DNA from: Minisyncoccota bacterium
Lineage (GTDB): Bacteria > Patescibacteriota > Minisyncoccia > Phycocordibacterales > Phycocordibacteraceae
Direction: 5' to 3'
NCBI GenBank assembly: GCA_017991635.1
Contig: JAGOQE010000004.1
Location: 1 to 40,000, forward strand
DNA: 40,000 nucleotides
Shown: positions 3,218 to 31,541 of the stretch, piece after piece
How the letters are laid out: each line of letters opens with the position of its first letter
Numbering within the stretch: the first letter of the stretch is position 1
Position numbers and translations under genes: made by a program
The notes under the pieces: generated by a model
The model's database searches: none
What the model saw: only the letters and a program-made list of their open reading frames with translations
Told to the model about the DNA's origin: nothing

Positions 3218-3853
3218 CTAGACCCGCTTGTCGACCAACTGGCCGGTGCCGTCCGAAGCGAGCTTTTGGGGCTCTGCGACAGGATCCGTCTTGACCACAA
3301 CGCCGATGGCGTTCTCAGGAACGGTGACGACCGACAGTGGGGCGACGGCGCCGAAGACCATCAGGACGCCCATGATTCCAAAGGCGAGGACAGGATGATC
3401 GTCGATGAAGAGGCCCGTCACCAGAGTACCGATGATGGCCGTGGCCAAAATCAGGACGAACTCCTTCCGGCTCGTGTAGTTTTCGACACTGTCGCGAAAC
3501 TCGCGAAGGACGAGCGAATAGATGACGAAGCCCACGACGGTGGCGACGATGCCAAGCGCAAGGCTCGACATGAACGTCATCACCACGGCCGACGCGAAGA
3601 TGAAGGTGGCGAGCGTCAGAACGACATTCTGACACCACAGTCGGAGCGACATCTCCACGGACTCATGCCGTGCGCGAAGAGCGCAGGCGACGAGGACGAG
3701 AGCGATGAGGCTCGCGACCAACATACCTCCCGCGAAGAAGGCATCGGCACTGTAGGGCTTCTCGGTCTCAACGAGACCGGCGAAGGCCCGAAAGCCGAAG
3801 ACCAGAGCGACGGAGACGGCGAACGAATTGGCGAAGAACTGAACGGTCTTCAT
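3218..3853 (-). CDS. Hypothetical multi-spanning membrane protein, 211 aa
   Basis: No family recognised. The protein has about six hydrophobic stretches, among them NSFAVSVALVFGFRAF near the N-terminus, GGMLVASLIALVLVACAL, VVLTLATFIFASAVVMTF and FVLILATAIIGTLVTGLF, and a short polar C-terminal tail. It is therefore an integral membrane protein. The start at 3853 (MKTVQFF) is preferred over the in-frame ATG at 3871 because a GGGGG Shine-Dalgarno-like run lies 9 bases upstream of it. The gene is clearly GC-richer than its neighbours and stands alone with its own sigma70 promoter, a 5'-UTR hairpin and its own terminator. A long open frame on the opposite strand (3209-4150) is a shadow of this GC-rich composition. 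Confidence 0.8.
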   Translation of the reverse strand: MKTVQFFANSFAVSVALVFGFRAFAGLVETEKPYSADAFFAGGMLVASLIALVLVACALRARHESVEMSLRLWCQNVVLTLATFIFASAVVMTFMSSLALGIVATVVGFVIYSLVLREFRDSVENYTSRKEFVLILATAIIGTLVTGLFIDDHPVLAFGIMGVLMVFGAVAPLSVVTVPENAIGVVVKTDPVAEPQKLASDGTGQLVDKRV

Positions 3854-3875
3854 GGCGAAGTACCCCCACATGTGT

Positions 3876-3934
3876 ACTCAAGAATGTTCTTGAGTTTCCT
3901 TATATATTATATCACCATATTGTATAAAAGTCAA
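3876..3934 (-). promoter_or_regulatory. Consensus sigma70 promoter and 5'-UTR hairpin for the 3218-3853 gene
   Basis: Minus strand: TTGACT (3934-3929), 17-base spacer, TATAAT (3911-3906), nearly consensus. The leader of about 50 bases holds a perfect dyad, ACTCAAGAA-CA-TTCTTGAGT (3876-3895), just before the Shine-Dalgarno-like GGGGG. The dyad could be an mRNA hairpin or an operator. The -35 box overlaps the trmD terminator hairpin. Confidence 0.75.
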
Positions 3935-3961
3935 TATCCACGGCCTAGACCGTGGATATTG
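3932..3961 (-). terminator. Intrinsic terminator after trmD
   Basis: Perfect 12-bp stem (CAATATCCACGG/CCGTGGATATTG) around a 6-base loop, starting 4 bases after the trmD stop. On the minus strand it is followed by ACTTTTATAC. The foot of the hairpin shares bases with the -35 element of the next gene. Confidence 0.75.
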
Positions 3962-3965
3962 TGGG

Positions 3966-4619
3966 TTACGACTTCTTTTTCTTCCACGCCTCGATGTCGG
4001 CATGGTTTCCTGTTTGGAGTACCTTCGGAACGCGGTACTTCTTCCCTTCCCACTCAAACACTTCAGGGCGTGTGTAAATCTCGCGTGCAGCGACTCGGCG
4101 CTCCTCTACTGAGTCGTCCTTTCCAAGCACGCCTGGAATACGTCGCGTGACCGCGTCCACAATAGCGAGACTTGGCACTTCCCCTCCTGTGTAAATTGCC
4201 TCCCCCACTGAGTACGTATGTAACTTTCCAAAGGTCTTCATGATGTTTTTTGCACGAGTATCAATCCCTTCGTAACGCCCAGAGACCAGTACGACATCAT
4301 CAAACTTTGCGAGCTTGTCGGCTTCTTTATTATCAAAAGATTTTGCAAAGGGCTCAAACCACACAATGGCGATTTTCCCTTTGCGACGCGTGAGCGCCTT
4401 TTTCACTGCACGAACGACCGGAAGCGCGCTCATGACCATACCCGGACCCCCGCCATACGGACGCTCGTCTACCTTCCCCCACTTATTATCAACAAAATCC
4501 CGTGGTGACTGGTAGTCCACGGAAATGAGTTTCTTCTCGCGCGCGCGTCCCAAAATAGACGCGGAAAGATACGCCTCGCAGGCGTCTGGGAAAAGAGTGA
4601 TGAGGTGGAAGCGAAGCAT
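3966..4619 (-). CDS. trmD: tRNA (guanine-37-N1)-methyltransferase TrmD, 217 aa
   Basis: Makes m1G at position 37, next to the anticodon, of tRNAs reading CNN codons, using S-adenosylmethionine; this prevents +1 frameshifting. SPOUT-fold hallmarks are visible: DERPYGGGPGMVMS near residue 51, SGRYEGID (usually CGRYEGID) near 113, SVGEAIYTGGEVPSLAIVDA forming the knot near 137, and a C-terminal RVPKVLQTGNHADIEAW. At 217 residues it is slightly shorter than usual (230-250). The region equivalent to the catalytic aspartate reads GKDDSVEE, so the Asp is kept although the usual DSF is DSV. It lies 19 bases downstream of khpA in the order rpsP-khpA-trmD. The usual operon partners rimM and rplS are absent. 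Confidence 0.97.
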   Translation of the reverse strand: MLRFHLITLFPDACEAYLSASILGRAREKKLISVDYQSPRDFVDNKWGKVDERPYGGGPGMVMSALPVVRAVKKALTRRKGKIAIVWFEPFAKSFDNKEADKLAKFDDVVLVSGRYEGIDTRAKNIMKTFGKLHTYSVGEAIYTGGEVPSLAIVDAVTRRIPGVLGKDDSVEERRVAAREIYTRPEVFEWEGKKYRVPKVLQTGNHADIEAWKKKKS

Positions 4620-4638
4620 GTGCTATTCGCTTAGATGA

Positions 4639-4938
4639 CTACGCACCGAGTGCTTCGTCCAGAGTCTTTTCTTCTGTCTGGTGATGCTTACCGCCAACTG
4701 GCTCGTTGATTTTGAGATTCACACGAGCATTGTGCTTCATACCCACAACCCGAAGAAGGGTGCGCAGTGCCTTCGCAATGTTTCCATCACGACCGATAAT
4801 TTTACCCATATCGTCAGCGTGCACAGTAAGCGTAAGGAGGACACCCATCTCATCAACTGAGCGAGTGACTTCTACGGCCTCAGGGTGGTCAACGAGAGCC
4901 TTAATAACGTAATCGAGAAATGCGTGGTCTTGATCCAT
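4639..4938 (-). CDS. khpA: KH-domain RNA-binding protein KhpA, 99 aa
   Basis: Small single-KH-domain RNA-binding protein; in Gram-positive bacteria KhpA pairs with KhpB to bind many RNAs and affect division and cell length. The core reads LTLTVHADDMGKIIGRDGNIAKALRTLL without a break (its key part is the GRDG loop of the GxxG motif), followed by the second beta-alpha unit with ARVNLKI. The tail is a short polar extension. It lies between rpsP and trmD, the classic position for khpA. A TACTCT hexamer lies 11 bases before the ATG and may serve as a -10 for a nearly leaderless transcript. No KhpB homologue is visible in the window. Confidence 0.93.
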   Translation of the reverse strand: MDQDHAFLDYVIKALVDHPEAVEVTRSVDEMGVLLTLTVHADDMGKIIGRDGNIAKALRTLLRVVGMKHNARVNLKINEPVGGKHHQTEEKTLDEALGA

Positions 4939-4992
4939 AAAGTCGTTTCAGAGTAATCGGGAGTAAGGGGGAACGAAGCGAAGCAAGACAGC

Positions 4993-5974: not shown

Positions 5975-6008
5975 ACGCCCCGGCAAACCAAAAGGTTTAC
6001 CGGGGCGT
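5975..6008 (-). terminator. Intrinsic terminator after the 6018-6476 gene
   Basis: Hairpin ACGCCCCGG...CCGGGGCGT with inner AAACC/GGTTT pairing and one mismatch, starting about 9 bases after the stop codon on the minus strand. The T-run after it is weak, but the stem is very stable. Confidence 0.65.
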
Positions 6009-6017: not shown

Positions 6018-6476
6018 TTACCACTCCCCATTGAGCCACGAGAGCGTCCGTTCGTTTCCGTGCCGAATCCAGAGATTCAGAGTGTAGAAGAAACAGAACG
6101 GTGCAAAGAGCGGATTCCAGTGCATAAGCGTGCGCCAGGTCTTGATGCGCGCATCTTCCGTCCAGACCTTCCCTTTGTAGTACGCTCGGCGAGCCATGCG
6201 ACTTTGAATGCCGAGCGGGAGAAGCCAGAGCGTGATGGAACCGAACGCAACACCAGACAGGTACGTGGCCACGAGGACCAAGGCGAAGTCATACTGATTT
6301 CCAAGTACGACCAGCACGATTCCGTAGAGAATACCGAGAAGCGAAAAAGCTCCACCAAGAGCTGACGCCGTGACCAGAATAAATGTCATGGCATGGAGCC
6401 AGCCGTACCTGCGAGACCACTCGGCCTTAAGCCAAACTTGCCTCGGGCCAGATTCAAACGTTTCGCGTTCGCTCAT
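6018..6476 (-). CDS. Hypothetical membrane protein, 152 aa
   Basis: No family recognised. Residues 1-25 are polar (MSERETFESGPRQVWLKAEW). Two or three long hydrophobic segments follow (AMTFILVTASALGGAFSLLG, GIVLVVLGNQYDFALVLVAT, GVAFGSITLWLLPLG), then a basic loop (SRMARRAYYKGK) and a Trp/Phe-rich C-terminal hydrophobic segment (HWNPLFAPFCFFYTLNLWI). The start at 6476 is set by a strong Shine-Dalgarno, AAGGAGG, 5 bases upstream; the in-frame ATG at 6533 lacks one. A 5'-UTR hairpin (6493-6506) lies directly before the Shine-Dalgarno. The gene is GC-richer than its neighbours and ends in a private terminator, like the 3218, 17606, 26470 and 31377 genes. Confidence 0.8.
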   Translation of the reverse strand: MSERETFESGPRQVWLKAEWSRRYGWLHAMTFILVTASALGGAFSLLGILYGIVLVVLGNQYDFALVLVATYLSGVAFGSITLWLLPLGIQSRMARRAYYKGKVWTEDARIKTWRTLMHWNPLFAPFCFFYTLNLWIRHGNERTLSWLNGEW

Positions 6477-6481
6477 ACGAG

Positions 6482-6506
6482 CCTCCTTGTATTGCACCCA
6501 GGTGCA
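6482..6506 (-). promoter_or_regulatory. 5'-UTR hairpin plus strong Shine-Dalgarno of the 6018-6476 gene
   Basis: Minus strand: TGCACC-TG-GGTGCA dyad (6493-6506), then AAGGAGG (6488-6482), then ATG. A possible promoter, TTGATA-N17-CACAGT, lies further upstream and is weak at -10. Confidence 0.55.
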
Positions 6507-8578: not shown

Positions 8579-8617
8579 ACGAAGTTATATCAGGCAGAGC
8601 TCTTTACGGAGGCACTC

Positions 8618-9055
8618 ATGCCGAGCATTTATATCAGACTCTTTCATCCAATTGAGTCAACTACTACAAACGCACAGGAAGTGAGTGCGCTCATGAAGCA
8701 ACTGTCACCAGAACGAAGCAGAGTCACCGAACAGTCACTTAGAGCACTTGCCGAGAATCATCTTCTGTTTGTGGTACTCGCTGATCAAAAGATTGTAGGT
8801 ATGGCAACGCTGATTGAACATCGCGCGCTTAATTCCTACACTGGCTACATTGAAGACGTAGTTGTGGACGGCGATTATCGAGGACAGGGTATTGCGAAGA
8901 AACTTATGCGTACACTCATCAAGCACGGCACGCTGCTTGGCATGGTGTCCTTCTCGCTTACGAGTAGTCCGCGCAAAGAATCTGCGAACAAGCTGTATCG
9001 CGCGCTTGGCTTTTTTGTTCGAGAGACGAACGCATACCGATATGTCGTTTCATAA
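8618..9055 (+). CDS. GNAT-family N-acetyltransferase, 145 aa
   Basis: Acetyl-CoA-dependent acetyltransferase of the GNAT fold; substrate unknown. Motif A is clear: EDVVVDGDYRGQGIAKKLM (residues 80-97) with the R-G-Q-G-I-A pyrophosphate-binding loop. The C-terminal strand and helix (ESANKLYRALGFFVRETNAY) carry the usual 'LYRxLGF' signature. The length is typical. A good Shine-Dalgarno, GGAGG (8608-8612), lies 5 bases before the ATG, unlike most conserved genes here, and a perfect hairpin terminator follows the stop. It may be a stand-alone acquired unit. Candidates for the substrate range from ribosomal protein N-termini to small amines; the sequence does not decide. Confidence 0.9.
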   Translation: MPSIYIRLFHPIESTTTNAQEVSALMKQLSPERSRVTEQSLRALAENHLLFVVLADQKIVGMATLIEHRALNSYTGYIEDVVVDGDYRGQGIAKKLMRTLIKHGTLLGMVSFSLTSSPRKESANKLYRALGFFVRETNAYRYVVS

Positions 9056-15899: not shown

Positions 15900-16883
15900 T
15901 TATGAGTTTAGAAAATCAACAAAGATGTCTAGATTTTCAGACAGATATTCAATTCTCTTTTGATCGTCGAATAAGAATCCATCGACCCTTGTATTCTCTT
16001 TTACATAGTGTTCACTTTCGACCCAAAAGCCATGAATAGCCTTTACGAAAAATAATTGCACACCTCTTTTAATTTCATCTTTAGAAATTGGATACACGCT
16101 CGAATACGCCTTAAGATAGGTTTTTGCATTTTCAAGATCCGTCTCAGTAACCTCTGCTGTCAGCAAGCCATAGATCATTGAACGGAACAATTCATAGGTG
16201 CGAGGCGAGTAATTCGTTTTTTCAAAATCAAAAACATACTGAACAGCATCGTGCTGATCAAAGAAAACGTTATGATCGAGGTAGTCACCATGCACTAAAT
16301 GGTCGCACTGCAAATTAAAGCTCTCAAAACGTAAGGTATTTGCTAACAGTAAATCTTTCTTCATGTACACACTCTCTAGCGCAGCTTTGTCAAAAGCATC
16401 AAGGGGGTCTTTCGCCTCAATCTGAATAAGAATATCTTCAATCTTCTTGAAAGTTTTTTCTTTATCCTCAATCTTAAAATGATCGTCAATTACTAACTGT
16501 GAGTTTTTACCCAAAAGGTGTATTTGTCCCAGCATCTCACCCATAGAAACAATTGCTGATTTTGTTAATGCACCTCTCTCAATATGTCTGCCATTAACAA
16601 ATGGAAAAACCGCGTAATACGCATTGCTAAACTCAAAAAATGTCTCTCCTGTTAGAAGTGGTATGGGGAGAATTACAGGGATTCCGCCATCAGCAAAATA
16701 TTTTTTGGAGGCGTGAATTTCTCTAATTCTTTTTGAATCATCAAATCTGTACTTCTTAAGAAAGAATTTCTGAGTACCACTTGAAATAACGTAGTTCTCG
16801 CTTAGAAAGCCTTTATCAACTTTTTCTGAGATAGAAACACATATTCCATATGCTGCATTAATCTTATTTAGAATTTCCTCCAC
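15900..16883 (-). CDS. APH-family phosphotransferase (aminoglycoside/choline kinase-like), 327 aa
   Basis: Protein-kinase-like small-molecule phosphotransferase. The catalytic loop HLVHGDYLDHNVFFD (near residues 192-206, HGDxxxxN type) and the metal-binding motif VFDFEKT (near 216-222) are intact. The N-terminal lobe has FFLKKYRFDD with the ATP-binding Lys. The overall form recalls homoserine kinase type II or SrkA-like enzymes; the substrate is unknown and antibiotic resistance should not be assumed. The start is GTG at 16883: a perfect extended -10, TGC-TATAAT (hexamer 16895-16890), ends 6 bases before it, predicting a leaderless GTG-start transcript. The gene is visibly AT-richer than everything around it, with codons such as AAA, TTT and ATT preferred, which suggests a foreign origin. 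Confidence 0.88.
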   Translation of the reverse strand: MEEILNKINAAYGICVSISEKVDKGFLSENYVISSGTQKFFLKKYRFDDSKRIREIHASKKYFADGGIPVILPIPLLTGETFFEFSNAYYAVFPFVNGRHIERGALTKSAIVSMGEMLGQIHLLGKNSQLVIDDHFKIEDKEKTFKKIEDILIQIEAKDPLDAFDKAALESVYMKKDLLLANTLRFESFNLQCDHLVHGDYLDHNVFFDQHDAVQYVFDFEKTNYSPRTYELFRSMIYGLLTAEVTETDLENAKTYLKAYSSVYPISKDEIKRGVQLFFVKAIHGFWVESEHYVKENTRVDGFLFDDQKRIEYLSENLDIFVDFLNS

Positions 16884-17540: not shown

Positions 17541-17590
17541 TCGCGCCGCATTCATCCCAAAATGAATACGGCGGTGTAAATGCGGCGCGA
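17541..17590 (-). terminator. Terminator after the 17606-18112 gene, with two alternative folds
   Basis: Outer 12-bp stem TCGCGCCGCATT/AATGCGGCGCGA followed on the minus strand by TTTTTATAT. Inside it, CCGCATTCAT/ATGAAT-AC-GGCGG can form a competing hairpin that uses the same CCGCATT bases. The two folds exclude each other. Confidence 0.75.
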
Positions 17591-17605
17591 TGGCCGCTTG
17601 TAAGC

Positions 17606-18112
17606 TTATGCCGACTGGTCGGCGAATTCCGGTGCGGATTCTTCAGTGTGCGGCGTCAAGTCGCGCACGAGGTGCGAGACGTTGAAGTACGCCGTCGAGA
17701 AAAGAAGAATCAGACCAATAGGGAGAGCAAATTCCTCGCCATACGCAAAAATAACGCAGGCAGAAATGCTCATCAAGAGAACCGCGAGTATGCGCGGCCA
17801 ACGATAGATGAGGCTCTCTCCGAGAGAGCGCATGTACGAAGTCACGCGTTGCGTGTTCGTTTCAAGGCTCAAGAAGCCTAGGTGAAAGGCGGCCAAGAGT
17901 CCGCCGACAATGAGTGTTCCTGTGAGAGAACATCCAAGGGCGAGCAGGGTCCCAAGCGCACGTGCGCTCAAAGGGCCGTCAACGATCACCGGCCACGCCG
18001 GAATATAAGCAGGTCCGAAAATAGATACAAAAAATACCGGCAGACCCACGAGGAGCACGCCAGAAATGTACCCTTCCCAGACCGCAAGCGGTCGAGTTGA
18101 TTGCTGTTGCAT
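17606..18112 (-). CDS. Hypothetical four-TM membrane protein, 168 aa
   Basis: No family recognised. Four hydrophobic segments are visible: ISGVLLVGLPVFFVSIFG (about 15-35), LGTLLALGCSLTGTLIVGGL (52-75), ILAVLLMSISACVIFAYG (105-125) and FALPIGLILLFSTAYF (127-145). A polar acidic tail (TPHTEESAPEFADQSA) follows. GC-rich compared with neighbours. It has a near-consensus promoter (18163-18191), a leader of about 50 bases with a hairpin (18136-18149), a GGAG Shine-Dalgarno 9 bases before the ATG, and its own terminator. Divergent from dnaE. This is the same gene plan as at 3218, 6018, 26470 and 31377. Confidence 0.8.
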   Translation of the reverse strand: MQQQSTRPLAVWEGYISGVLLVGLPVFFVSIFGPAYIPAWPVIVDGPLSARALGTLLALGCSLTGTLIVGGLLAAFHLGFLSLETNTQRVTSYMRSLGESLIYRWPRILAVLLMSISACVIFAYGEEFALPIGLILLFSTAYFNVSHLVRDLTPHTEESAPEFADQSA

Positions 18113-18135
18113 TGTAAAGAACTCCAGCTGTCGAA

Positions 18136-18191
18136 AAGCATTATTGCTTGTCGTACTTATTAATTATAGCACAAAGACGGTCAGAAATCAA
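18136..18191 (-). promoter_or_regulatory. Promoter and leader hairpin of the 17606-18112 gene
   Basis: Minus strand: TTGATT (18191-18186), 17-base spacer ending TGC, TATAAT (18168-18163). The leader contains AAGCA-ATAA-TGCTT (18149-18136), then CTGGAG as the Shine-Dalgarno. The region also holds the dnaE promoter on the other strand. Confidence 0.75.
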
Positions 18192-18221
18192 TATTCGCCT
18201 GATTTGGTATTCTATAGAGAC

Positions 18222-21200
18222 ATGTCGTTTGTCCACCTCCACGTCCACTCACACTACTCCTTCCTTCAGGCACTTCCGAAAGTTCCGGAACTTATTAAAA
18301 CTGCAAAAGAGATGGGACTTGAAGCTATCGCCCTTACCGACGCCGGAAACATGCATGGCGCTATCGACCTCTATAAGGAAGGCATTAAAAAAGGGGTGAA
18401 GCCCATTTTCGGTGTCGACGCATACCTTGCACCGAATTCTCGTCACGAGCGCGACCCAAACGAAAAGCGTTCTCGCCTGGTCTTACTTGCTGAAAACTAT
18501 GAGGGCTACCAGAACCTTATGGCCCTCATTACGAAATCCTTTACTGAAGGCATGCACGAGCGCCCACGCATGGACATGGAAATTCTGAAAGAACACCATG
18601 CGGGACTCATTGCCCTCCTTCCTTCTTTCTCCGGTGATGTTGCTCGCCTCCTCTCCCTTGGTGATTCTGATGGTGCCGAAGCAGTCCTTTCTGAATACAT
18701 TTCAGTCTTTGGCAAAGACAATGTCTTTCTTGAAATCACCCACCACCCAAAGGCTGAAGGGCACCACGAGCGCATGCGTGCGATTGTGTCTCTTGGTAAG
18801 AAGGCTGGTGTCCCTGTCGTCGCTCAACATGACGTCTACTATCTAAAACCTGAAGATCGCGAGGCGTGTGCTGTCCTTCGTCGTATTGCACAGGGCGGGC
18901 GCGGATACAACGAGGAAGAAGATTTCTCATTTGTGAGTGAAGAGAAGATTCGTTCCTGGTTTGATTGGGTTCCTGAATCAATTGATACTTCAGGCGAGAT
19001 TGCGAAGCGGTGTACGGTAGAGCTTGAGCTTGGGAAATGGGTCTTTCCTAACCTCCCTGTTGCAGAAGGCTTCAAAGATTACGCTGACGAGCTCCGCGCT
19101 AAAACATACATAGGTATCAAAACACGCGGTCTTGAAGAGACACCTGAACTTGTGAAGCGTATTGAGTACGAACTTGAAGTCATTATTGATAAAGGCTTCG
19201 CCCCGTACTTCCTTGTAGTGTCCGACCTTCTCACCTTTGCTAAGGAATCAGGCATTCTCACCACAACACGTGGTTCCGCTGCGGGTTCTCTAGTCTCATA
19301 CCTTGTCGGCATCACCAACGTCGATCCGATGGCATACAAGCTTCCCTTTGAGCGTTTCTTGAATCCTGAACGACCTAAGGCGCCAGATATTGATATGGAC
19401 TACGCCGATAATAGGCGTGATGAAATCATTCAGTATGCACGTAGAAAGTACGGTGCTGATCACGTAGCGCAGATTGGAACATTTGGCACCATGATGGCAC
19501 GCGCAGCGGTGCGCGATGTGGCACGCGCTCTTGGACACTCCTACGGCGTGGGTGACCGTATTGCAAAACTTATTCCTATGGGCTCTCAGGGATTCCCTAT
19601 GACGGTGAAGCGCGCCCTTGAGATGGAAGAAGAATTACGCACACTCTATGGCGAAGATGATGACGCTAAAGAAATTATTGACCTCGCACAAAAGATTGAA
19701 GGCTCGGCGCGACAAACAGGCGTGCACGCTGCGGGCGTGGTGATTTCACCAACGCCACTTACCCTATGGTCACCACTTCAGACTGACCCGAAAACAGGAA
19801 AGCTTATTACGCAGTACGACATGCACGCCATTGAGGATGCAGGTCTGTTGAAGTTCGACTTTCTTGGTATTAAAAACCTCGCCATCCTCGCAGACAGCGT
19901 TGCGCGCGTAAAGGAAACTCGTGGCATTGCTATTGATATTGAAAACGTACCTCTTGATGACGAGACTACTTTTACCATGCTTGCCAAAGGAGACACGGAA
20001 GGAACCTTCCAGCTAAACGGCTCAGGTATGACGCGCTATTTGAAGGAACTACGCCCCACAAGCATTCACGACATTAACGCCATGGTGGCTCTGTATCGCC
20101 CTGGTCCGATGGAAACTATTCCTCAGTACATTGAACGCAAGAGAACTCCTGGTCTTATTCACTACATGGACGAGCGCATGAAGGAATACCTCGATGCGTC
20201 CTACGGACTTCTCGTCTACCAAGACGACGTGCTTTTGACTGCCATCACACTTGGTGGGTACTCATGGCTTGAAGCTGACACCTTGCGTAAGGCGATGGGT
20301 AAAAAAATTCCTGCAGAAATGGAAGCGCAGAAGGAAAAACTCTTGAAGGGATTTATTGAGTACGGAAAGCTTACTCCCCACAAAGCCGAGATGATTTGGA
20401 AGCTGATTGAACCGTTTGCTGCGTACGGTTTTAACAAGGCGCACGCTGCAAGTTACGGAAAGGTGGCATATCAAACTGCGTACATGAAGGCCAACTACAC
20501 GGTGGAATACATGGCCGCTGTGTTGACCGCTGACTCGGGCGACACAGAATCTATCGCTATCTTTGTTGCTGAATGTGAACGACTAAATATCCCTGTCCTT
20601 CCCCCTGACATTAATGAAAGCAACACTGACTTCACCGTTATTTCTGACAAGGACGGTGTTCCCACAGCAATTCGTTTTGGGCTTTCCTCAATTAAAAACT
20701 TTGGTGAAGGAATTGCTGAGGCCATCATGCACGAGCGCAAAAATAAGGGCGCCTTTACTTCCCTCTCAGAATTCCTTTCACGTGTTGAGGAGAAAAGTTT
20801 GAACCGAAAATCTCTTGAAGCACTCATTAAGTGTGGCGCTCTCGACAGCATCAAGCCCGCACACACGGGACGCTTGGACCTCCTTGCTCATATTGAAATT
20901 CTTCTCTCCTTCCACAGAGACGCTACTCAGAAAATGCCCCAAGACTCCCTCTTTGGTACCTTGCGCACGCCTGAACTTGTTCTTCCAAAGGAAGAGCCTC
21001 GTGAAGTCTCACTTGGCGAGATGCTTATTTGGGAGAAGGAACTTTTGGGTATTTACGTTTCAGGACACCCTCTTGATGCACATCAAGACATGCTTGATAA
21101 GGCGAAGATGACCATCTCAGACGTTCTTATTGACCCTCGTGCAGGGCAGCCCGTTATTCTCCCTGTACTTGTTGAGGACGTACGAACCATTCTCACCAAG

Positions 21201-21389: not shown

Positions 21390-21434
21390 TATAACTCACG
21401 CAGAAACTTGAACCCAGGGCGCGGGAGAAACACT

Positions 21435-21866
21435 ATGCGTGCAAACACAACGGCACACGCAATACTCGACAGACATGCTGAAGCATTTATTGCGGAACTT
21501 CGGGAAGCAGAATTCATAGACCGTGGTCAAGGTCAGTACCTTGACCCCGCAGATGTGAAAGCTGCATTCATGGGACCAATACAAGACGCCATGCAAAAGG
21601 AACGTCTTCGTCCTCTGACTCAGAAAATTCGCTTGGAGGCAGAAAAGCTTCTGGACGACATGTCCCAAAAAGGACTTATTACTCCGGGGGCACGTGCACA
21701 TGTCGACCTAGACGACCTGGTCGACCGTGTCCGTAAGGTCCTTGCCCTCGCCTGGCTACCCACCTTAGGGGTGGAAGCCAGTAGCATGAAGCTCGGCCGG
21801 CTCGCTTTTAAAGCGCGCCGGCCGATTCGTCTTGTGCTATCCTCATACGTATATGGCCTCACTTGA
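21435..21866 (+). CDS. Hypothetical helical protein, 143 aa, overlapping hairpins and the thrS start
   Basis: No family recognised. Charged and mostly helical (AHAILDRHAEAFIAELREAE, PIQDAMQKERLRPLTQKIRL, VDLDDLVDRVRKVLALAW), with no membrane segment. The start at 21435 is favoured by GGGAG 7 bases upstream; the ATG-free stretch back to 21408 adds nothing. The last 35 codons pass through two strong hairpins (21753-21782 and 21793-21824) and through the thrS promoter. The stop lies 14 bases inside thrS in another frame. The tail (SSMKLGRLAFKARRPIRLVL) therefore looks unlike real protein, and an older stop may have been lost by frameshift. Reading frame good up to about 21750; the true end is uncertain. 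Confidence 0.6.
   Translation: MRANTTAHAILDRHAEAFIAELREAEFIDRGQGQYLDPADVKAAFMGPIQDAMQKERLRPLTQKIRLEAEKLLDDMSQKGLITPGARAHVDLDDLVDRVRKVLALAWLPTLGVEASSMKLGRLAFKARRPIRLVLSSYVYGLT
21753..21824 (+). terminator. Tandem hairpins before thrS, probable terminator
   Basis: Hairpin 1: CTGGCT/AGCCAG with inner CC-ACC/GGTGG (21753-21782). Hairpin 2: TCGGCCGGC/GCCGGCCGA with inner CGCTT/AAGCG (21792-21824), followed by TTCGTCTTGT. Both lie inside the open frame of the 21435 gene. Confidence 0.55.
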
Positions 21867-23665: not shown

Positions 23666-26347
23666 TTATCCGTTTACCACAGACAGTGCGCGAGTAAGAG
23701 CAAGCTTAGCGCTCGTCATCCCTGTTGAGTAACTTCCGTCAATTGCGTTTGCAAGTGAAGTAATCACACGCTCAAGGAATTCTGGCGCAACACCTTCAGT
23801 CGCCTTAAGTACTTCTGGATGACACACACCTCCCTCAGTTCGGGCACGGTACGCATCATCAAGTGCACATACGGCATGGGTGACGAACATTTCAGAGTCC
23901 CCTCCACCTCGATTTACGGCACGTACCATTCCAAAGACCGTGTCGCGATCACCATTAAGAAGTGCGCTTACAAAGGCAGGAATATCGTGGTGCACTTCGG
24001 GAGCCTGAATGGACTTCTCCATATCGGCACGAGATACATAGTCAGGTGCAGCAATAGGTTCCGTAAACGGTACGATTACTGGTTCAACGTGACGTTCCTC
24101 AAAGGCGTGAGCAATTGCCTCAGGACCATGTGCCTCATTTGTTCGAGAGAGTCCCTTTACCAGATCATCAATCGTGAGTGCAGAACCTTCGGCAAATGAA
24201 CGGAAGCCGACCTCGGGACGGAATCCTGTTGCCACAGGTGCTTCTGGCACGTGGTGACTAGTGTGTCCACCATGGGTCGAGGTGTGAGCGCTTGTGTGTG
24301 CACTTCCATGACTACCATGTGCTTCCTGATCACTGTTAAGTACTGTTTGCACATTCATACCGAATGAACGCACACCACGGACAGAGAGCGGCGCAAGCTT
24401 GAAGAGAATCAAGTACGCTGCTGCAATACTCCAGAGGATAAGAACCATCCAGTAGATAACGGTTCCTGTAGGACCAAGATCAAGACCGGTGTACGGAACT
24501 TCTGAAAGGTAGACGAAGGCAAGAGATTCCTCAGGTGGGTGTGGCAGCACATCGAGCAAAACTTTTGGCTTTGAGCGACCTCCCCCACCTCCTCCTCCAC
24601 CACAGTTACTGGTACATCCAGTAGATTCAATTTCTACTCGAGCAGTACACGTAATAGTGCCTCCGGTATCAGTAGTAAATGTTCCTGTGTAGGTAGTGTT
24701 TGCCGTTGGCGAAACACTTTGTGAACCTGAGAGCGCTGACGTGGTACCTACGCCGTTATCAATGAAGATTGCGGTGATATGTGAACCTCCCCACGTAAGC
24801 ACTGATGAGCCACCACTTGAGATTGTGGTTGGGGACGCCGTTAAGGTACAAGACGGTGCAGTATTAGTGGTTACGGTAACTGGTGCAGAACAGGTAACTG
24901 TTCCTCCAGGACCCGTTGCAGTACCTGTGTACGTAGTAGAGCTTCCTGGAGACACTGAGTGTGTACCTCCTGAAACTGGAGTCACTGCTCCAATACCGTT
25001 ATCAATTGAGAAAGACGTTGCATGCGTAGTGGTCCACGTTAGAACTGACGTTCCTCCAGGCGTAATTGAAGGAGGCATTGCAGAGAGCGTACAGGTTGGT
25101 GCTGGGTTCAATACCACTTCAACGGTAGCAGTACAGTTAACGGTTCCTCCATTACCTACTGCAGTACCTGTGTAGGTTGTGGTGAATAGAAGACCTGACA
25201 CGGTATGTGTTCCCCCTGATACAGGAGTCACTGCTCCAATACCCTGATTAAGAGTGAAGCTGTTTGCGTTTGTGGTAGTCCACGTCAAGGTTGATGAGCC
25301 ACCAAGACCTACCTGTGTTGGATTTGCGGTGAGCGTACAGGTTGGTGCTGGATTAGTGGTCACGGTAACCGTAGCAGTACAGTTGACCGTTCCTCCATCT
25401 CCGACAGCGGTTCCGGTATACGTCGTCGTTACTCCTGGAGTAACGCTTCGTGTTCCCCCTGATACAGGAGTCACTGCTCCAATACCCTGATTAAGAGTGA
25501 AGCTGTTTGCGTTTGTGGTAGTCCACGTCAAGGTTGATGAGCCACCAAGACCTACCTGTGTTGGATTTGCGGTGAGCGTACAGGTTGGTGCTGGATTAGT
25601 GGTCACGGTAACCGTAGCAGTACAGTTGACCGTTCCTCCATCTCCGACAGCGGTTCCGGTATACGTCGTCGTTACTCCTGGAGTAACGCTTCGTGTTCCC
25701 CCTGATACAGGAGTCACTGCTCCAATACCCTGATTAAGAGTGAAGCTGTTTGCGTTTGTGGTAGTCCACGTCAAGGTTGATGAGCCGCCTGGAAGAATTG
25801 ACGTAGGGTTTGCTGAAAGCGTACAGGTTGGCGCATTAGTTACCGGTGGTGGAATACGCACTGGGGCGCTACACGTGACTTCACCTCCTGCTCCGTGAGC
25901 AGTTAGCGTATACGTTGTATTTACTGTCGGCGAGACACTTCGACTGCCATCCTCACTCACACTACCAATACCTTGATTGATAGATACGGACGTAGCGTTT
26001 GTGGTAGTCCACGTCAAGGTTGATGAGCCACCTGAAACAATCTCCTCAGGAGAAGCGTTAAGCGTACACTGAGGTGGTGGTACTGGAGGTGGTGGTACGA
26101 CAGGGGGAACGACAGGAGTCACAGGAACAACTGGCACTACAGGTACCACGGGTACGACTGGCACTACAGGAGTGACTGGTGCACAACACGGAGGTCCAAC
26201 AACCTGTGCCTTGATGACATCAGGAAGTGCGATGCCTGTTGCAAATGCAACACCGACACCTGCAGAGATGACTGCGATCACGACAAAGAGCCCGATACCG
26301 ATCGGACGTAGCTTCTCTTGCAGTGATGTATCTACTGTTAGTTTCAT
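23666..26347 (-). CDS. Large surface protein: Pro/Val linker, six Ig-like repeats, internal VPYTG motif, TM, cytoplasmic tail (893 aa)
   Basis: N-terminal membrane segment (16-40), then CC at 54-55 and a Pro/Val linker with VVP repeats (about 57-93). Six repeats of about 80 residues begin near 94; each opens like CTLTANPTQV-GGSSTLTW, has TTYTGTA and ends NCTATV, a conserved Cys pair in an Ig-like beta fold. Repeats 3 and 4 are identical. Then come a Gly run, RSKPKVLLDVLPHPPEES, VPYTG (617-621) and a membrane segment (about 628-651). The tail of about 240 residues has a His/Ser/Thr stretch and no domain I recognise. The start at 26347 (MKLTVDTS) is preferred to the ATG 33 bases upstream. A sortase gene lies nearby. 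An envelope role in adhesion or as a spacer is likely. Confidence 0.88.
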   Translation of the reverse strand: MKLTVDTSLQEKLRPIGIGLFVVIAVISAGVGVAFATGIALPDVIKAQVVGPPCCAPVTPVVPVVPVVPVVPVVPVTPVVPPVVPPPPVPPPQCTLNASPEEIVSGGSSTLTWTTTNATSVSINQGIGSVSEDGSRSVSPTVNTTYTLTAHGAGGEVTCSAPVRIPPPVTNAPTCTLSANPTSILPGGSSTLTWTTTNANSFTLNQGIGAVTPVSGGTRSVTPGVTTTYTGTAVGDGGTVNCTATVTVTTNPAPTCTLTANPTQVGLGGSSTLTWTTTNANSFTLNQGIGAVTPVSGGTRSVTPGVTTTYTGTAVGDGGTVNCTATVTVTTNPAPTCTLTANPTQVGLGGSSTLTWTTTNANSFTLNQGIGAVTPVSGGTHTVSGLLFTTTYTGTAVGNGGTVNCTATVEVVLNPAPTCTLSAMPPSITPGGTSVLTWTTTHATSFSIDNGIGAVTPVSGGTHSVSPGSSTTYTGTATGPGGTVTCSAPVTVTTNTAPSCTLTASPTTISSGGSSVLTWGGSHITAIFIDNGVGTTSALSGSQSVSPTANTTYTGTFTTDTGGTITCTARVEIESTGCTSNCGGGGGGGGRSKPKVLLDVLPHPPEESLAFVYLSEVPYTGLDLGPTGTVIYWMVLILWSIAAAYLILFKLAPLSVRGVRSFGMNVQTVLNSDQEAHGSHGSAHTSAHTSTHGGHTSHHVPEAPVATGFRPEVGFRSFAEGSALTIDDLVKGLSRTNEAHGPEAIAHAFEERHVEPVIVPFTEPIAAPDYVSRADMEKSIQAPEVHHDIPAFVSALLNGDRDTVFGMVRAVNRGGGDSEMFVTHAVCALDDAYRARTEGGVCHPEVLKATEGVAPEFLERVITSLANAIDGSYSTGMTSAKLALTRALSVVNG
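25207..25786 (-). repeat. Tandem 243-bp repeats inside the surface-protein gene
   Basis: 25207-25449 and 25450-25692 appear identical base for base, and 25693-25786 repeats the first 94 bases of the unit. The unit is 81 codons, exactly one Ig-like domain. This implies very recent duplication or ongoing homogenisation, and it is a place where short-read assembly could have collapsed or added copies. Confidence 0.9.
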
Positions 26348-26417: not shown

Positions 26418-26480
26418 GGATTGTGACGAAGGGGTTAGGACCCTTACGTCACAATCCGGCGTCCCGCACTCAGGCGGGAC
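26418..26480 (-). terminator. Double-hairpin terminator after the 26470-27414 gene
   Basis: First GTCCCGC/GCGGGAC (26461-26480), which overlaps the stop codon. Then GGATTGTGACG/CGTCACAATCC with inner AAGGG/CCCTT (26418-26457), followed on the minus strand by TTTTCATACG. Confidence 0.8.
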
Positions 26481-27414
26481 AGTTGCCATCGTCGCGGATG
26501 AAGAACCGCTCTTCGATGTGGACGCTGGTGCGGCCATTCCAGGCTCCTTCGCGTGTTCCGGGCGGAATATACACTCCGCAACTCCGGACGCCTTGATATT
26601 CGAGGCAGACGTAGAACATGGCGTTCCAGGCCTGACGCGACATCCGGATGGTCTGACGACCGCCGGTCAAGGTGCGATAGAGGTACCGGTGAGGGACGGT
26701 GGCGGAAGCGCCGAGCGTCTGCCTGATGTAGGCGTACGCCGGAACGCATTCGTCACACTCGCCCGACCAGGCATTCCAGGGACCGTTGCCGTCCTTCTGC
26801 GCGTTGCAGAGAGACGGAGCCAAGGGACCAAACGTGGTGCCCAAACCCCACCGGAAGGATGCGCCAGGACGAGTGTCGAAACTCACCTCGACGCAGTCCA
26901 TCGACGGGGTCACCGTGGGCGCCCACGACCAGTTGAAGCAGACATACGGCAAGATGAGCCGATACGTCGTGCCGTCACCACTCGTGTACGTCCACTCGAG
27001 CGCACGTGCCGTCTGTGCGACAGCGCCAGTACGGTAGCGACGACCATCCGGAGCCCGAAGGACCGGAAGTTCTGCCACCGTGACGTTGTTCATCACATGC
27101 GGTCGAGCCCCACCGGACCACATCTGCGAAAGTTGCTCGTCCGGCGTAAGCCAGACTTCGCGACCTCCTGCACACGTGGTGCCGAGCTGGCGAATGAAGT
27201 CCGCCTTGGCGTCTTCAGGCAGGTTCATGCCGTTGATGGCTTCCCTGCTCTTTCGACACGCTTCAGCGAACGTGGAAGCGTACGGGGCACCGCCCCATCC
27301 GCTCCACAAGACCGTTTCTTCAGTCGGCGGCGGAGGCACTGCCTGCGCCATCGACTGTGTCGGAGCGACCCACATGGTGAGAAGCGCCCCGACCAGGATG
27401 ATGAATCGTTTCAT
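26470..27414 (-). CDS. Secreted Cys-rich hypothetical protein, 314 aa
   Basis: Clear signal peptide: MKRF, hydrophobic core IILVGALLTMWVA, likely cleavage after SMAQA (about residue 25), then a Pro-rich start (VPPPPTEE). The mature part has ten Cys, an even number that suggests disulfides, including GECDEC, YVCFNW, YVCLEY and RSCGVY. It is rich in Trp and Tyr and has no later membrane segment. No family recognised. The gene is much GC-richer than its neighbours. A 16-base perfect hairpin (27433-27448) and a GAGAGGG Shine-Dalgarno precede the start, and a double-hairpin terminator follows. A long plus-strand open frame (26386-27453) is a shadow. It lies between the surface protein and the sortase, consistent with export. 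Confidence 0.82.
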   Translation of the reverse strand: MKRFIILVGALLTMWVAPTQSMAQAVPPPPTEETVLWSGWGGAPYASTFAEACRKSREAINGMNLPEDAKADFIRQLGTTCAGGREVWLTPDEQLSQMWSGGARPHVMNNVTVAELPVLRAPDGRRYRTGAVAQTARALEWTYTSGDGTTYRLILPYVCFNWSWAPTVTPSMDCVEVSFDTRPGASFRWGLGTTFGPLAPSLCNAQKDGNGPWNAWSGECDECVPAYAYIRQTLGASATVPHRYLYRTLTGGRQTIRMSRQAWNAMFYVCLEYQGVRSCGVYIPPGTREGAWNGRTSVHIEERFFIRDDGNCPA

Positions 27415-27432
27415 CGTACCCTCTCTGGTTGC

Positions 27433-27448
27433 GCCACCCGTGGGTGGC
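27433..27448 (-). promoter_or_regulatory. 5'-UTR hairpin of the secreted Cys-rich protein gene
   Basis: Perfect GCCACCC-AC-GGGTGGC dyad on the minus strand, about 18 bases before the ATG and just upstream of GAGAGGG. This matches the hairpin-then-Shine-Dalgarno order seen at 3876, 6493, 18136 and 31357. Confidence 0.55.
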
Positions 27449-29190: not shown

Positions 29191-31269
29191 TTAAATATCC
29201 AAATTCGCAAGACGTGCGTTTGATTGAATAAAGGACTTTCGACTTGGTACGTCTGTACCCATAAGGATGTCGAAGATGCGGTCAGCTTCAGTGGCGTCCT
29301 CAACCGTAACGCGCTTCAACACACGATGGCGAGGATCCATGGTGGTGTCCCAGAGTTCATTTGCATTCATCTCTCCGAGACCTTTGTATCGCTGAATTGA
29401 AACCTTCTGAATTTTCTTTGCCTTTGTGGTTGTGGTCTCCTCTTCAACTTCTTCTTCATCTTCCTCACCAGATTCGTCAACTTCCTCCATAGTGTCAGCA
29501 TCATTTCCAATTAGCTGGAACTTCTCCTCATCAGTGTACGCATACATAATCTCCTTTCCACGTTTGATTTTGTAGAGTGGTGGCTGAGCAATGTACACAA
29601 ACCCTCCATCAATAACCTGACGGAAATGACGGTAGAAGAGCGTCAACAAAAGCGTTCTAATATGGGCACCGTCCACGTCGGCGTCTGTTGCAATGATGAC
29701 CTTGTGATAACGAAGTTTGTTCAAATCAAAGACGTCACCAATCGCCGTACCAAGTGCTACCACTAGGTTCTTGATCTGCTCAGAGGCGAGCATCTTATCC
29801 AAGCGTGCGCGTTCAATATTCAAAATCTTTCCACGAAGTGGAAGGATAGCTTGGGTGCGTCTGTCGCGTCCAGTCTTTGCAGTTCCACCCGCAGAATCTC
29901 CCTCCACAATAAAGAGCTCTGATTCGGACGCATCCTTGGTCTGACAGTCTGCGAGCTTACCAGGCAAGGTCATGCCTTCAAGCGCGCCCTTTCGAAGGAC
30001 TGAATCTTTCGCAGCTTTCGCAGCCTTTCTCGCCTTTAGTGCGAGGAGCACCTTGTTAATGATGGCGCGACCATCGTCAGGATTCTCCTCGAGGAAGGTG
30101 TTCAACGCTTCACCAAAAACAATTTCAACGGCGCTTCGCGCCTCAACTGAACCGAGCTTTGCCTTAGTTTGTCCTTCAAACTGAATCTCGGGCATCTTTA
30201 CTGAAACGACGGCAGTAATGCCTTCAAGTGCATCGTCCCCGGTAAAGTTCTCCTCACTTTCTTTGAGGATGTTTGCTTGGCGCCCGTAGTTGTTCAGTGT
30301 TCGGGTGAGCGCTGTCTTGAAACCAGTCACGTGCGTACCATGCTCCGGGTTATAGATATTGTTTGCAAAGGCGAGGAGACGAGGAGAAATATCATCGACG
30401 TACTGAAAGGCCACTTCAACCATCACATCATCCTGCTCTTTTTCTACATAAAAAATATTCTTATGAATTGGACTCTGGTGCTGGTTGTAGAAAGAAATGA
30501 GTGAACGAAGACCTCCCTCAAAATAGAAAGACATGCTTGGCACCTCAAGACCGAGATCACGAATGTATACCGTGCTGGTGTCGTCTACCTTCTCTTCTCC
30601 ACGAGCATCAATGACTGAAATACGAACACCCTTCACAAGATACGCTTGCTGGCGTACGTGAGAAACGATTCGGCTCCACTCATACTTAATCTCTTGGAAA
30701 ATAGTAGGGTCTGCAGCAAAGGTAATGATGGTTCCCTGGTGATCAGTTTTACCGAGCTTCTTAACGGGAGCGAGCGCCTTACCAATTTTGTATTCCTGCA
30801 CGTACACATCACCATCCTTGTGTACCTCAGCACGCATATCTGTTGAAAGGGCGTTCACCACAGAAGCTCCCACGCCGTGAAGACCTCCTGAAACCTTGTA
30901 GCCTGAAGCTTCACCTCCGAACTTTCCTCCGGCGTGAAGTGTGGTCAAAATAGTCTCAAGCGCTGAGACCTTAGTGTGTGGGTGCTTGTCTACTGGAATA
31001 CCGCGACCGTTGTCTACAACACGAATACGATTCTCTGGAAGAAGCGTGACTTCAATATCGTCAGCGAAGCCACCCATCGCCTCATCGCGTGAGTTATCAA
31101 AAATTTCCCAAATAAGGTGATGCAAGCCATCGGGACCAGTGGTACCGATATACATACCCGGACGCTTGCGCACAGGGTCAAGTCCTTCAAGGACGGTGAT
31201 GGATGATGCATCGTAACTGCCACTTTTCGTGGCAGTTTTCTTAGGTTTCTCCTCTTTAGCGCTCGCCAT
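29191..31269 (-). CDS. gyrB: DNA gyrase subunit B, 692 aa
   Basis: ATPase subunit of type IIA topoisomerase. GHKL ATPase domain: IFDNSRDEAMGGFADDI, VVDNGRGIPVDKHP, and GKFGGEASGYKVSGGLHGVG (the ATP lid). TOPRIM domain: LFIVEGDSAGGTAKTGRD and ATDADVDGAHIRTLLL. C-terminal QRYKGLGEMNANELW is typical for GyrB/ParE. An acidic insert (MEEVDESGEEDEEEVEEE) sits in the TOPRIM-C-terminal region near residue 580. Length is near that of short GyrB proteins. The start at 31269 (MASAKEEK) is chosen over 31293 because TGG-TATACT (31287-31282) would cover the earlier codons. The -10 lies 12 bases from the ATG, giving a leader of about 5 bases. ParE rather than GyrB cannot be fully excluded; gyrA is not in the window. 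Confidence 0.93.
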   Translation of the reverse strand: MASAKEEKPKKTATKSGSYDASSITVLEGLDPVRKRPGMYIGTTGPDGLHHLIWEIFDNSRDEAMGGFADDIEVTLLPENRIRVVDNGRGIPVDKHPHTKVSALETILTTLHAGGKFGGEASGYKVSGGLHGVGASVVNALSTDMRAEVHKDGDVYVQEYKIGKALAPVKKLGKTDHQGTIITFAADPTIFQEIKYEWSRIVSHVRQQAYLVKGVRISVIDARGEEKVDDTSTVYIRDLGLEVPSMSFYFEGGLRSLISFYNQHQSPIHKNIFYVEKEQDDVMVEVAFQYVDDISPRLLAFANNIYNPEHGTHVTGFKTALTRTLNNYGRQANILKESEENFTGDDALEGITAVVSVKMPEIQFEGQTKAKLGSVEARSAVEIVFGEALNTFLEENPDDGRAIINKVLLALKARKAAKAAKDSVLRKGALEGMTLPGKLADCQTKDASESELFIVEGDSAGGTAKTGRDRRTQAILPLRGKILNIERARLDKMLASEQIKNLVVALGTAIGDVFDLNKLRYHKVIIATDADVDGAHIRTLLLTLFYRHFRQVIDGGFVYIAQPPLYKIKRGKEIMYAYTDEEKFQLIGNDADTMEEVDESGEEDEEEVEEETTTTKAKKIQKVSIQRYKGLGEMNANELWDTTMDPRHRVLKRVTVEDATEADRIFDILMGTDVPSRKSFIQSNARLANLDI

Positions 31270-31310
31270 AATCTTAGCTCTAGTATACCACATTACGCAC
31301 CTGTCTTCCC

Positions 31311-31371
31311 TTGCCCAAATGGGTATTTAGACGCATAGTGCAGGGGTCCGAGTCATCCATATATGGGAGGA
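31311..31371 (+). promoter_or_regulatory. Promoter, 5'-UTR dyad and Shine-Dalgarno of the 31377 gene
   Basis: TTGCCC (31311-31316), 17-base spacer, CATAGT (31334-31339). The leader has the palindrome CCATATATGG (31357-31366), overlapping the strong Shine-Dalgarno GGGAGGA (31365-31371) 5 bases before the ATG. Confidence 0.5.
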
Positions 31372-31376
31372 ACGTC

Positions 31377-31541
31377 ATGGACGGACGCCAAGAGTACATC
31401 GAAGGTCCGCTCCGCGCCTTAGCGGAGCAGGTGCCCGAACTCCTCATGAAGGGAGCTCTCTACGCAGGAATCGTTGTCGTTGTTTTCGCGACCCTGTGCG
31501 GAGGACTCGCCTTCTTGAGCCGCTTCGGCAACCACCAATAA
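31377..31541 (+). CDS. Small single-TM membrane protein, 54 aa
   Basis: No family recognised. Polar acidic N-terminus (MDGRQEYIEGPLRALAEQ), one membrane segment (LYAGIVVVVFATLCGGLAFL, about 28-47), and a short tail (SRFGNHQ). The strong Shine-Dalgarno GGGAGGA sets the start; the frame back to 31311 overlaps the promoter. It ends in a clear terminator and sits between two minus-strand housekeeping genes, divergent from gyrB and convergent with pheT. Same plan as the other GC-rich hairpin/Shine-Dalgarno genes. Confidence 0.75.
   Translation: MDGRQEYIEGPLRALAEQVPELLMKGALYAGIVVVVFATLCGGLAFLSRFGNHQ

Follow-up and report, generated by a model that had tools for sequence, protein, structure and literature searches.

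The genome of a Kaiserbacteria-like Minisyncoccota bacterium contains two expression classes: many genes that look leaderless, and a GC-rich minority led by Shine-Dalgarno (SD) sequences. We analysed this genome around a stretch of 40,000 nucleotides (assembly GCA_017991635.1, contig JAGOQE010000004.1, positions 1 to 40,000; hereafter the window), in which an earlier note, made from the letters alone, had singled out five genes of no recognised family. Classified by GC content at third codon positions (GC3), the minority comprises 23 of 327 genes, 18 of them with an SD, and is marked by classical spacing, commoner terminators, and GC-rich codons. No readable 16S ribosomal RNA (rRNA) tail of the genus has an anti-SD, yet the SD and the GC-rich codons persist between species at the locus of one window gene, o26470, and in a family of small lipoproteins. 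That one gene position keeps its SD across the genus suggests that something still reads it. The explanation that we favour, and to which we give an even chance, is that these are accessory genes passed between genomes, each with a self-contained, leadered SD signal, and retained despite the loss of the known SD decoder.

The source genome (726,101 bp in 21 contigs, 96.4% complete; the window is its contig C5) has as nearest named relatives by dnaE ‘Parcubacteria bacterium C7867-007’ (72%) and ‘Candidatus Kaiserbacteria bacterium nzgw463’ (70%). A simple codon-model caller, whose GC-rich model was trained on the five noted window genes, was run on the window and 23 further stretches (in all 371,788 bp, or roughly half the genome) and called 340 genes with a mean GC of 0.490 (standard deviation 0.041). 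Genes with a GC3 of at least 0.62 (n = 23) were set against those below 0.55 (n = 291), a cut made after inspection of the data; 13 genes of middle GC3 (SD in four, −10 box in five) were excluded from the tests. SD scoring permitted adjacent alternative starts for both classes, and counts at the called start were kept separately. The leaderless mark was a TANNNT box no more than 16 bases ahead of the start codon. Depending on the search, the genus sample held 34 to 78 genomes; counts of relatives’ sites are of fetched loci, to which some genomes contributed two. Signal peptides, lipoboxes, and lipoproteins were called by eye.

The two gene classes differ in their start signals. SDs precede 18 of 23 high-GC3 genes versus 31 of 291 low-GC3 genes (Fisher P = 3e-12); if only the called start counts, the figures are 11 of 23 versus 11 of 291 (P = 1e-8). 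The leaderless box shows the reverse, at 1 of 23 versus 136 of 291 (P = 3e-5). With the window excluded, and with called starts and a different motif list, the SD counts are 7/19 versus 16/269 (P = 2e-4); control motifs in the start-motif comparison stand at about 4%. TATAAT-like boxes lie 21 to 50 nucleotides upstream in 4 of the 18 genes that are both SD-led and GC-rich (20 of 291 low-GC3 genes) and 3 to 11 nucleotides upstream in none of them (52 of 291). Furthermore, terminators with a U-run follow 7/18 versus 22/291 genes (P = 5e-4), and strong post-stop hairpins of any type follow 8/18 versus 71/291 (P = 0.09). A −35-like TGACAAA is found upstream of 5/18 versus 3/291. In a comparison of 7-mers, the class shares the −35-like TTGACAAA and the SD, borderline after correction for 2,307 7-mers, and nothing else; no convincing motif is common to the regions downstream of the units. 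Across two scanned parts, terminator-like matches exceed shuffled sequence (23 versus 13.6 and 13 versus 5.9), and consensus promoter matches show no clear excess (6 versus 12.2 and 7 versus 4.3).

The leaderless appearance of core genes extends across the genus. The box is found at RNase R (16/17), rpsP (15/17), smc (15/15), dnaE (18/19), rnhB (17/20), thrS (11/12), and rnc (9/18), and SDs number 0 to 3 in each core family. In other genomes of the taxonomic class, the box precedes 44/90 genes of G122 and 25/70 of G180, both without an anti-SD, and 7/103 of G119, which has one. The corresponding SD counts are 2/90, 5/70, and 8/103, with control motifs at 1 to 7 for G122 and G119 and 0 to 2 for G180. 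The SD-led genes of G180 are of ordinary composition. Four SD-led genes of G180 stand within 2.8 kb (L215:9445-12220) amid many leaderless-type starts, and the first of them resembles, by eye, the N-terminus of DAHP synthase.

All readable 16S tails of the genus lack an anti-SD. Helix 45 of the resident 16S ends with GGUCGUGGAACAUAUCCAAUCGG, and 20 of 20 readable tails (this genome included) read GGA(A/U)CAUAUCC; 10 of 30 loci were unreadable. In a sister genus of the same family the tail is GGAUCAAUUCC. Across the taxonomic class, CCUCC is kept in 16 of 27 readable tails and then in one of seven further ones, is partly decayed in others (L168-L207), and is missing from several lineages. An anti-SD that is present and sequestered, as in Bacteroidota, was not found. 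Against a canonical tail, the 23 GC-rich genes pair at −7.4 kcal/mol (shuffled −4.5), with 17/23 at or below −6; against the resident tail they reach −3.8 (shuffled −3.9), with 2/23 at or below −6. For low-GC3 genes, the values with either tail are close to those of shuffled sequence (60/290 canonical and 31/290 resident at or below −6). The resident tail as the partner of the SDs can thus be set aside, its pairing being no better than shuffled. The genome gave one small-subunit rRNA match, and TCACCTCCTT occurs five times in it versus three for the reversed control, so neither a second 16S nor a stray copy of this sequence offers itself. An intron restoring CCUCC behind the 16S was likewise rejected: of 20 congener sequences, only four have CCTCC within 420 nucleotides downstream, and its positions there are unrelated. 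A tail without CCUCC and frequent −10 boxes at start codons are the features of a leaderless-rich bacterium without an anti-SD; this genome has both, and its class of SD-led genes (18 of 23 GC-rich genes) means that it is not an ordinary member of that group.

Directly after helix 45, a conserved structured RNA of about 170 to 250 nucleotides is present in this genome (L133:2921-3200, contig C19) and at 19 congener loci. It ends in GAATAGGCGGAACA, mostly followed by what looks by eye like a terminator hairpin; 19 of its 39 predicted pairs have two-sided changes among 17 sequences, and no Rfam family reaches the gathering score. It may be a 3′ extension of the 16S lacking an anti-SD or a separate RNA.

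The window genes of the class and their elements are as follows.

3218..3871, minus strand: o3218, GC-rich hydrophobic ORFan of 217 amino acids between rpoB and trmD (GC 0.604, GC3 0.80); no SD at normal spacing
3906..3934, minus strand: promoter of o3218 from the promoter scan, TTGACT-17-TATAAT
3876..3895, minus strand: leader dyad of o3218, 8 pairs, loop of 4
3173..3207, minus strand: terminator-like hairpin behind o3218, 16 pairs, U-run poor
6018..6476, minus strand: o6018, GC-rich hydrophobic ORFan of 152 amino acids between rpsP and RNase R (GC 0.549)
6482..6488, minus strand: SD of o6018, AAGGAGG
6493..6506, minus strand: leader dyad of o6018, 5 pairs, loop of 4
5976..6007, minus strand: strong hairpin behind o6018, without a U-run
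8618..9055, plus strand: gene named GNAT by the earlier note (GC 0.475, not GC-rich), with a clear SD, GGAGG, at 8608-8612
17606..18112, minus strand: o17606, GC-rich hydrophobic ORFan of 168 amino acids between the divergent rnhB and dnaE (GC 0.548, GC3 0.59)
18122-18127, minus strand: weak SD of o17606, CTGGAG
18163..18191, minus strand: promoter of o17606 from the promoter scan, TTGATT-17-TATAAT
18136..18149, minus strand: leader dyad of o17606, AAGCA-ATAA-TGCTT
17544..17573, minus strand: terminator behind o17606, 13 pairs, with a U-run
21435..21866, plus strand: o21435, ORFan between dnaE and thrS (GC 0.53, GC3 0.48)
21423-21428, plus strand: SD-like GGGAGA of o21435
26470..27414, minus strand: o26470, modular, signal peptide by eye, between o23666 and the sortase gene (GC 0.623, GC3 0.72)
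27419..27426, minus strand: SD of o26470, AGAGAGGG
27433..27448, minus strand: leader hairpin of o26470, GCCACCCACGGGTGGC, 6 pairs, immediately ahead of the SD
26418..26457, minus strand: terminator-like inverted repeat behind o26470, then TTTT
31377..31541, plus strand: o31377, small GC-rich ORFan of 54 amino acids with one hydrophobic segment, between gyrB and pheT (GC 0.588)
31365..31372, plus strand: SD of o31377, GGGAGGAA
31561..31579, plus strand: terminator of o31377

The common plan that the earlier note had ascribed to its five genes holds in part. All five are richer in GC than the genome mean, and the class differs from that mean in codon usage as well. Division by GC3 bears the class out, with the exception that o17606 falls under the cut. 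A strong SD in each gene was too broad a claim, as it is clear in three of five (o6018, o26470, and o31377). The supposed leader dyads exist at four of five positions (5 to 8 pairs); that at 31357-31366 is a 10-nucleotide palindrome with three possible pairs. Across the class, leader stems of at least six pairs occur in 8/18 SD-led GC-rich genes where shuffles give 3.05 (P = 0.006), a modest excess; low-GC3 leaders also exceed their shuffles (28/120, 21.1 expected), and the classes differ at P = 0.08. Hairpins follow all five genes, and the strong terminator expected of each fails at o3218 and o6018 for want of a good U-run. The upstream promoters could be seen for o3218 and o17606. The five products do look membrane-bound or secreted by eye, and strongly hydrophobic segments are enriched among the SD genes of relatives (13/23 versus 81/254, P = 0.02) but not in this genome’s sample (6/18 versus 107/291). 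Finally, the SD that the earlier note had also assigned to the GNAT gene and o21435 is present or approximated in both, and their compositions indicate that SD leaders occur outside GC-rich genes too. By Pfam, all five genes score below the cut-off, the best match being PufX for o31377; of ten further class proteins, eight have no family, one is a clear NUDIX protein, and one has a match under its cut-off.

The o26470 locus carries a conserved SD-led member. The site between o23666 and the sortase gene is occupied in all 18 congener loci in which both neighbours were found, with gaps of 1.4 to 2.6 kb, and is never closed. The o26470 family itself was found in 15 of 34 genus genomes and in none of 24 genomes from elsewhere in the order; by profile, it is present in 5/5 genus genomes and 0/280 others of the taxonomic class, with no match in 80 named dnaE loci and no relative in the PDB. 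Its proteins have a common N-terminal region, and their C-terminal modules vary between congeners. In G061, G023, G019, G016, and G030, the locus holds genes without recognisable homology to o26470 and with an identical leader plan: a small hairpin, 4 to 9 nucleotides, the SD, and the start. (In the G030 stretches L222-L227, 42,000 of 120,000 bases are N, and the G030 gene counts come from that masked sample.) The stems have diverged and remain paired (GCCGC/GCGGC, GTCGC/GCGAC, CGTCC/GGACG, CTCTCG/CGAGAG, and others). Scored per sequence, since a MAFFT alignment of the short leaders misplaced them, hairpins adjoin the SD in 12 leaders out of 14 where 2.8 are expected, the exceptions being L120 and L084; 14 of 16 leaders were scored, as the hairpin rule found no SD in L096 and L098, both of which pair with CCUCC by duplex energy.

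These leaders fit the tail that the genus lacks. Against the canonical CCUCC tail, 16 leaders average −10.0 kcal/mol (shuffled −6.2), all 16 at or below −6; against the resident tail they average −4.0 (shuffled −4.3), and none reaches −6. The first 16 leaders were chosen partly by their SD, and the four omitted loci were then added: G016 (−9.0) and G030 (−6.6) fit, G012 does not (−5.5, weak AGGGA), and G029 has no such gene. Overall, CCUCC fits in 18 of 20 genomes, and the resident tail fits at −6 in 0 of 19 leaders. Each genome’s own tail was read for 8 of the 18 fitting genomes (G000, G002, G006, G013, G016, G019, G022, and G033); those of the remainder are taken from the genus.

Composition at the o26470 locus is uncoupled from the genome. 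GC3 of the tested core genes tracks genome GC3: with one locus per genome (n = 17-19), slopes for the sortase, o23666, o28363, thrS, dnaE, and rnc genes are 0.82 to 1.20 (r 0.83-0.99). For the o26470-locus gene, the slope is −0.07 (r −0.11, n = 19), or −0.17 (n = 17) before G016 and G030 were added. The trees of sortase and o28363 place G010 with G020 and G000 with G012; that of o26470, 9 of whose 11 inner branches are weak, places G020 with G012 (81/95) and G015 with G022 (100/99). The neighbour o23666 (23666-26347) encodes a large secreted protein in which TTNANSFTLNQGIGAVTPVSGGT-type modules recur, and its leader has a hairpin and AGGGAAAC, as do those of several relatives. In another stretch, two tandem class paralogs (L007:16871-17407 and 17557-18243) have a similar leader hairpin and a GGGAGGCTT motif.

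A second SD-led family encodes a small lipoprotein. It consists of four genes in three genomes (two in this genome, one each in G012 and G077; 78 searched), with the SD-like motifs GAGGAG, AGGAG, and GGGAG (twice) and a GC3 of 0.77 to 0.85, where neighbours have about 0.45 to 0.50. Between the orthologs of G012 and G077, promoter and SD are conserved, and by eye the leaders differ at five of 57 nucleotides; at four-fold sites, the lipoprotein gene differs by 20% and four neighbouring genes by 21 to 61%. The G077 tail has no anti-SD; that of G012 was not recovered. AT-GC changes affect 6/51 four-fold sites of the lipoprotein gene versus 58/233 in two neighbours (P = 0.04, a test that omitted rplL, 11/85, and a helix-turn-helix gene, 42/92), which is suggestive only of synonymous constraint.

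SD-led genes of different species resemble each other in codon usage. Their codon correlations are 0.93 to 0.96 mutually and 0.40 to 0.48 with their own core. The class in this genome correlates at 0.48 with its own core, at 0.91 with the core of GC-rich congeners, and at 0.90 with a GC-rich genome of the taxonomic class that bears an anti-SD. Its leucine codons are CTC-rich (0.47; CTG 0.22), like those of relatives’ core genes. The shared codon profile, the uncoupled GC3, the conflict between trees, and the differing C-terminal modules are together what would be expected of exchange within a pool.

Several class genes stand alone at intergenic sites, and in many congeners those sites are closed. 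At the o17606 site, the gap between rnhB and dnaE is 32 to 101 nucleotides in 16 of 22 congener loci, 279 in two loci of one genome, and 599 to 713 in four (L096, L107, L112, and L116), two of which have a called gene, neither SD-led. The rpsP-RNase R gap (o6018 site) is 57 to 91 nucleotides in 9/17 loci; genes were called in L083 and L097, neither of them SD-led. Between dnaE and thrS (o21435 site), the gap is 18 to 59 nucleotides in 9/18 loci, and L096 and L112 hold SD-led genes. Of 17 rpoB-trmD loci (o3218 site), five hold other small genes, and those of L103 and L107 are SD-led. Between gyrB and pheT (o31377 site), the gap is closed, at 65 to 73 nucleotides, in only 3/15. No homologs of o3218, o6018, o17606, o21435, or o31377 were found in the fetched syntenic regions of relatives; in 78 genus genomes, o3218 has, besides itself, two weak matches (E 3.4e-4).

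Phage morons are single genes with their own promoter and terminator, and the units here resemble them as single accessory genes of deviating base composition that lie between conserved genes with expression signals of their own. Single genes between conserved genes and absent from relatives were found for o17606, o6018, and o21435. Promoter matches, of a kind not clearly in excess of shuffled sequence overall, were seen for o3218 and o17606, and terminators with a U-run follow 7 of the 18 SD-led GC-rich genes. Unlike morons, the units are in a cellular chromosome, in a core context. A phage or plasmid origin was tried and rejected: PHROGs gave nothing for 8 of 10 proteins and two weak matches (E 0.004 and 0.007). 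No relative of o26470 was found among viral contigs, plasmids, and phages, of o3218 among viral contigs and phages, or of o17606 among viral contigs, scans of viral contigs reaching close relatives only. In one of these scans, five stretches fitted a pattern and none was confirmed as a relative. The units are single and dispersed, not in arrays as integron gene cassettes are.

Taken as imported units in a mostly leaderless host, one of the two readings offered by the earlier note, the class is largely borne out by its codon usage, its coming and going, and the leaderless-looking core. The note’s wording that such units are “still using” SD initiation meets a resident 16S without an anti-SD, and “imported” does not suit o26470, which is no fresh import, its locus and hairpin-SD leader being kept genus-wide. 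From the sequences we infer probable horizontal circulation and an SD that would be at work. Accessory units would circulate in a Kaiserbacteria-like gene pool, dropping in and out between transcription units, and would function where they land because each brings a leader and SD, and often a promoter and terminator. The hairpin at the o26470 locus may keep the SD and start unpaired, or may mark a landing point for the ribosome. The SD would persist because something still reads it, and this reader would be other than a CCUCC tail encoded by the resident 16S gene. It could be a protein that binds RNA, a different RNA, or a mature 16S whose 3′ end departs from the gene sequence. More doubtfully, an RNA or protein might replace the anti-SD for these private mRNAs, or the ribosomes of another cell might read them; in the latter case, the GC-rich genes may be written for a host’s translation machinery.

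Several observations weigh against exchange of units with a working SD. Starts were chosen partly by the SD; at the o26470 locus many of them, though not all, are backed by signal peptides. As most class members lack a homolog, persistence of the SD is seen in two families only, and no boundary repeat or integrase ties the units to a mobility mechanism. A strict rule places a hairpin immediately ahead of the SD for just two GC-rich genes out of 23; thus, the hairpin belongs to the o26470 locus more than to the class. The leaderless box occurs only 0 to 3 times per family at rpoB, trmD, nusB, gyrB, sortase, and pheT, some of which may lie inside operons. The SD counts of G122, without an anti-SD, and G119, with one, indicate that, in the taxonomic class, having an anti-SD and using SDs go together only loosely. 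The SD genes of GC-rich congeners are close to their core in codons (r 0.97), and relatives’ SD genes track genome GC3 to some extent (slope 0.44; n = 29, with some o26470-locus and core genes among them).

Recent import from GC-rich donors that use SDs would make the SD donor baggage without function, which we consider unlikely. It explains the ORFans well: o3218, o6018, o17606, o21435, and o31377 lack homologs in the fetched syntenic regions, the codon usage of the class is close to that of a GC-rich genome with an anti-SD, and G180 has SDs above controls without an anti-SD, in genes of ordinary composition. It does not explain the o26470 locus, whose family is seen only in the genus without an anti-SD, yet whose leaders fit CCUCC; nor does it sit well with the lipoprotein leader, kept between G012 and G077 while neighbouring genes diverged. 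The earlier note’s other reading, a co-regulated envelope regulon of native genes under common control, GC-rich through selection for expression, is improbable and was not established. The look of the window products, the hydrophobic segments of relatives’ SD genes, and the TGACAAA upstream speak for it. However, the products in this genome’s own sample are not enriched, members vary between species, little is shared among 7-mers, and a shared operator was not found; moreover, rpsP, rpsB, and rpmE have a GC of 0.46 to 0.50, so expression level alone is no explanation of GC.

We think it more improbable still that SD and GC-rich codons match the host of a presumed episymbiont and that the genes act there after transfer. 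The SD does fit an anti-SD missing from the resident 16S, GC3 at the o26470 locus is independent of the symbiont genome, and by eye a number of the products carry a signal peptide or lipobox. Leucine codon use that is CTG-rich is typical of many likely hosts, and that of the class is CTC-rich as in relatives’ core genes. Chance or a start-calling artefact would be very surprising. The cut was post hoc, starts were partly chosen by SD, and the GC-rich caller model came from window genes; but the identical procedure gives 11% on the 291 low-GC3 genes, and the contrast holds at called starts, without the window, and against control motifs.

Most of the remaining window genes belong to the core: rpoB, trmD, rpsP, RNase R, smc, rnc, nusB, rnhB, dnaE, thrS, gyrB, pheT, prfA, tsf, and rpsB, named by eye from translations, with rpoB and sortase identified by Pfam. 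A strongly AT-rich gene (15900-16883, GC 0.361), by eye a kinase of aminoglycoside-phosphotransferase type, has no homolog found in the fetched regions of relatives and is possibly a foreign gene of opposite composition.

Two initiation modes in one genome are also found in mycobacteria, where many leaderless genes stand beside SD-led ones; unlike the genus described here, mycobacteria have an anti-SD. SD and anti-SD are generally held to disappear together. The parts of Amin et al. 2018 that were consulted (PMC6107228) report that where the exact anti-SD is absent, the SD is generally absent too; 2 of 128 organisms there have an AGGAG motif with a one-base anti-SD variant, ascribed to recent loss or sequencing error. 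Like those organisms, ours has a 16S tail without CCUCC and little SD ahead of most genes; unlike them, it keeps the SD in a defined gene class, in a genus whose readable tails are all devoid of the anti-SD. Patescibacteria are absent from the groups named in those parts (PMC6107228). A strong-SD minority in a bacterium that seldom uses SDs is also known from Flavobacterium johnsoniae, where, according to the consulted parts of PMC9976891, the SD-led rpsU is read by ribosomes lacking bS21; Bacteroidia, as described there, keep and sequester the anti-SD, in contrast to the 16S gene without one found here. No account of SD or anti-SD loss in Patescibacteria was found in the literature searched, which mostly left out subscription papers.

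Thus, a genus that has lost its anti-SD, and whose core is often leaderless-looking, has an accessory gene class with textbook SDs, which persist at one locus. This makes directly testable whether an SD can function without a complementary 16S tail, and what its reader is. SD-leaning start prediction will fit the wrong gene class in these genomes, which calls for caution. The SD-led, GC-rich class also offers a route, by sequence only, to the accessory gene pool of such Patescibacteria.

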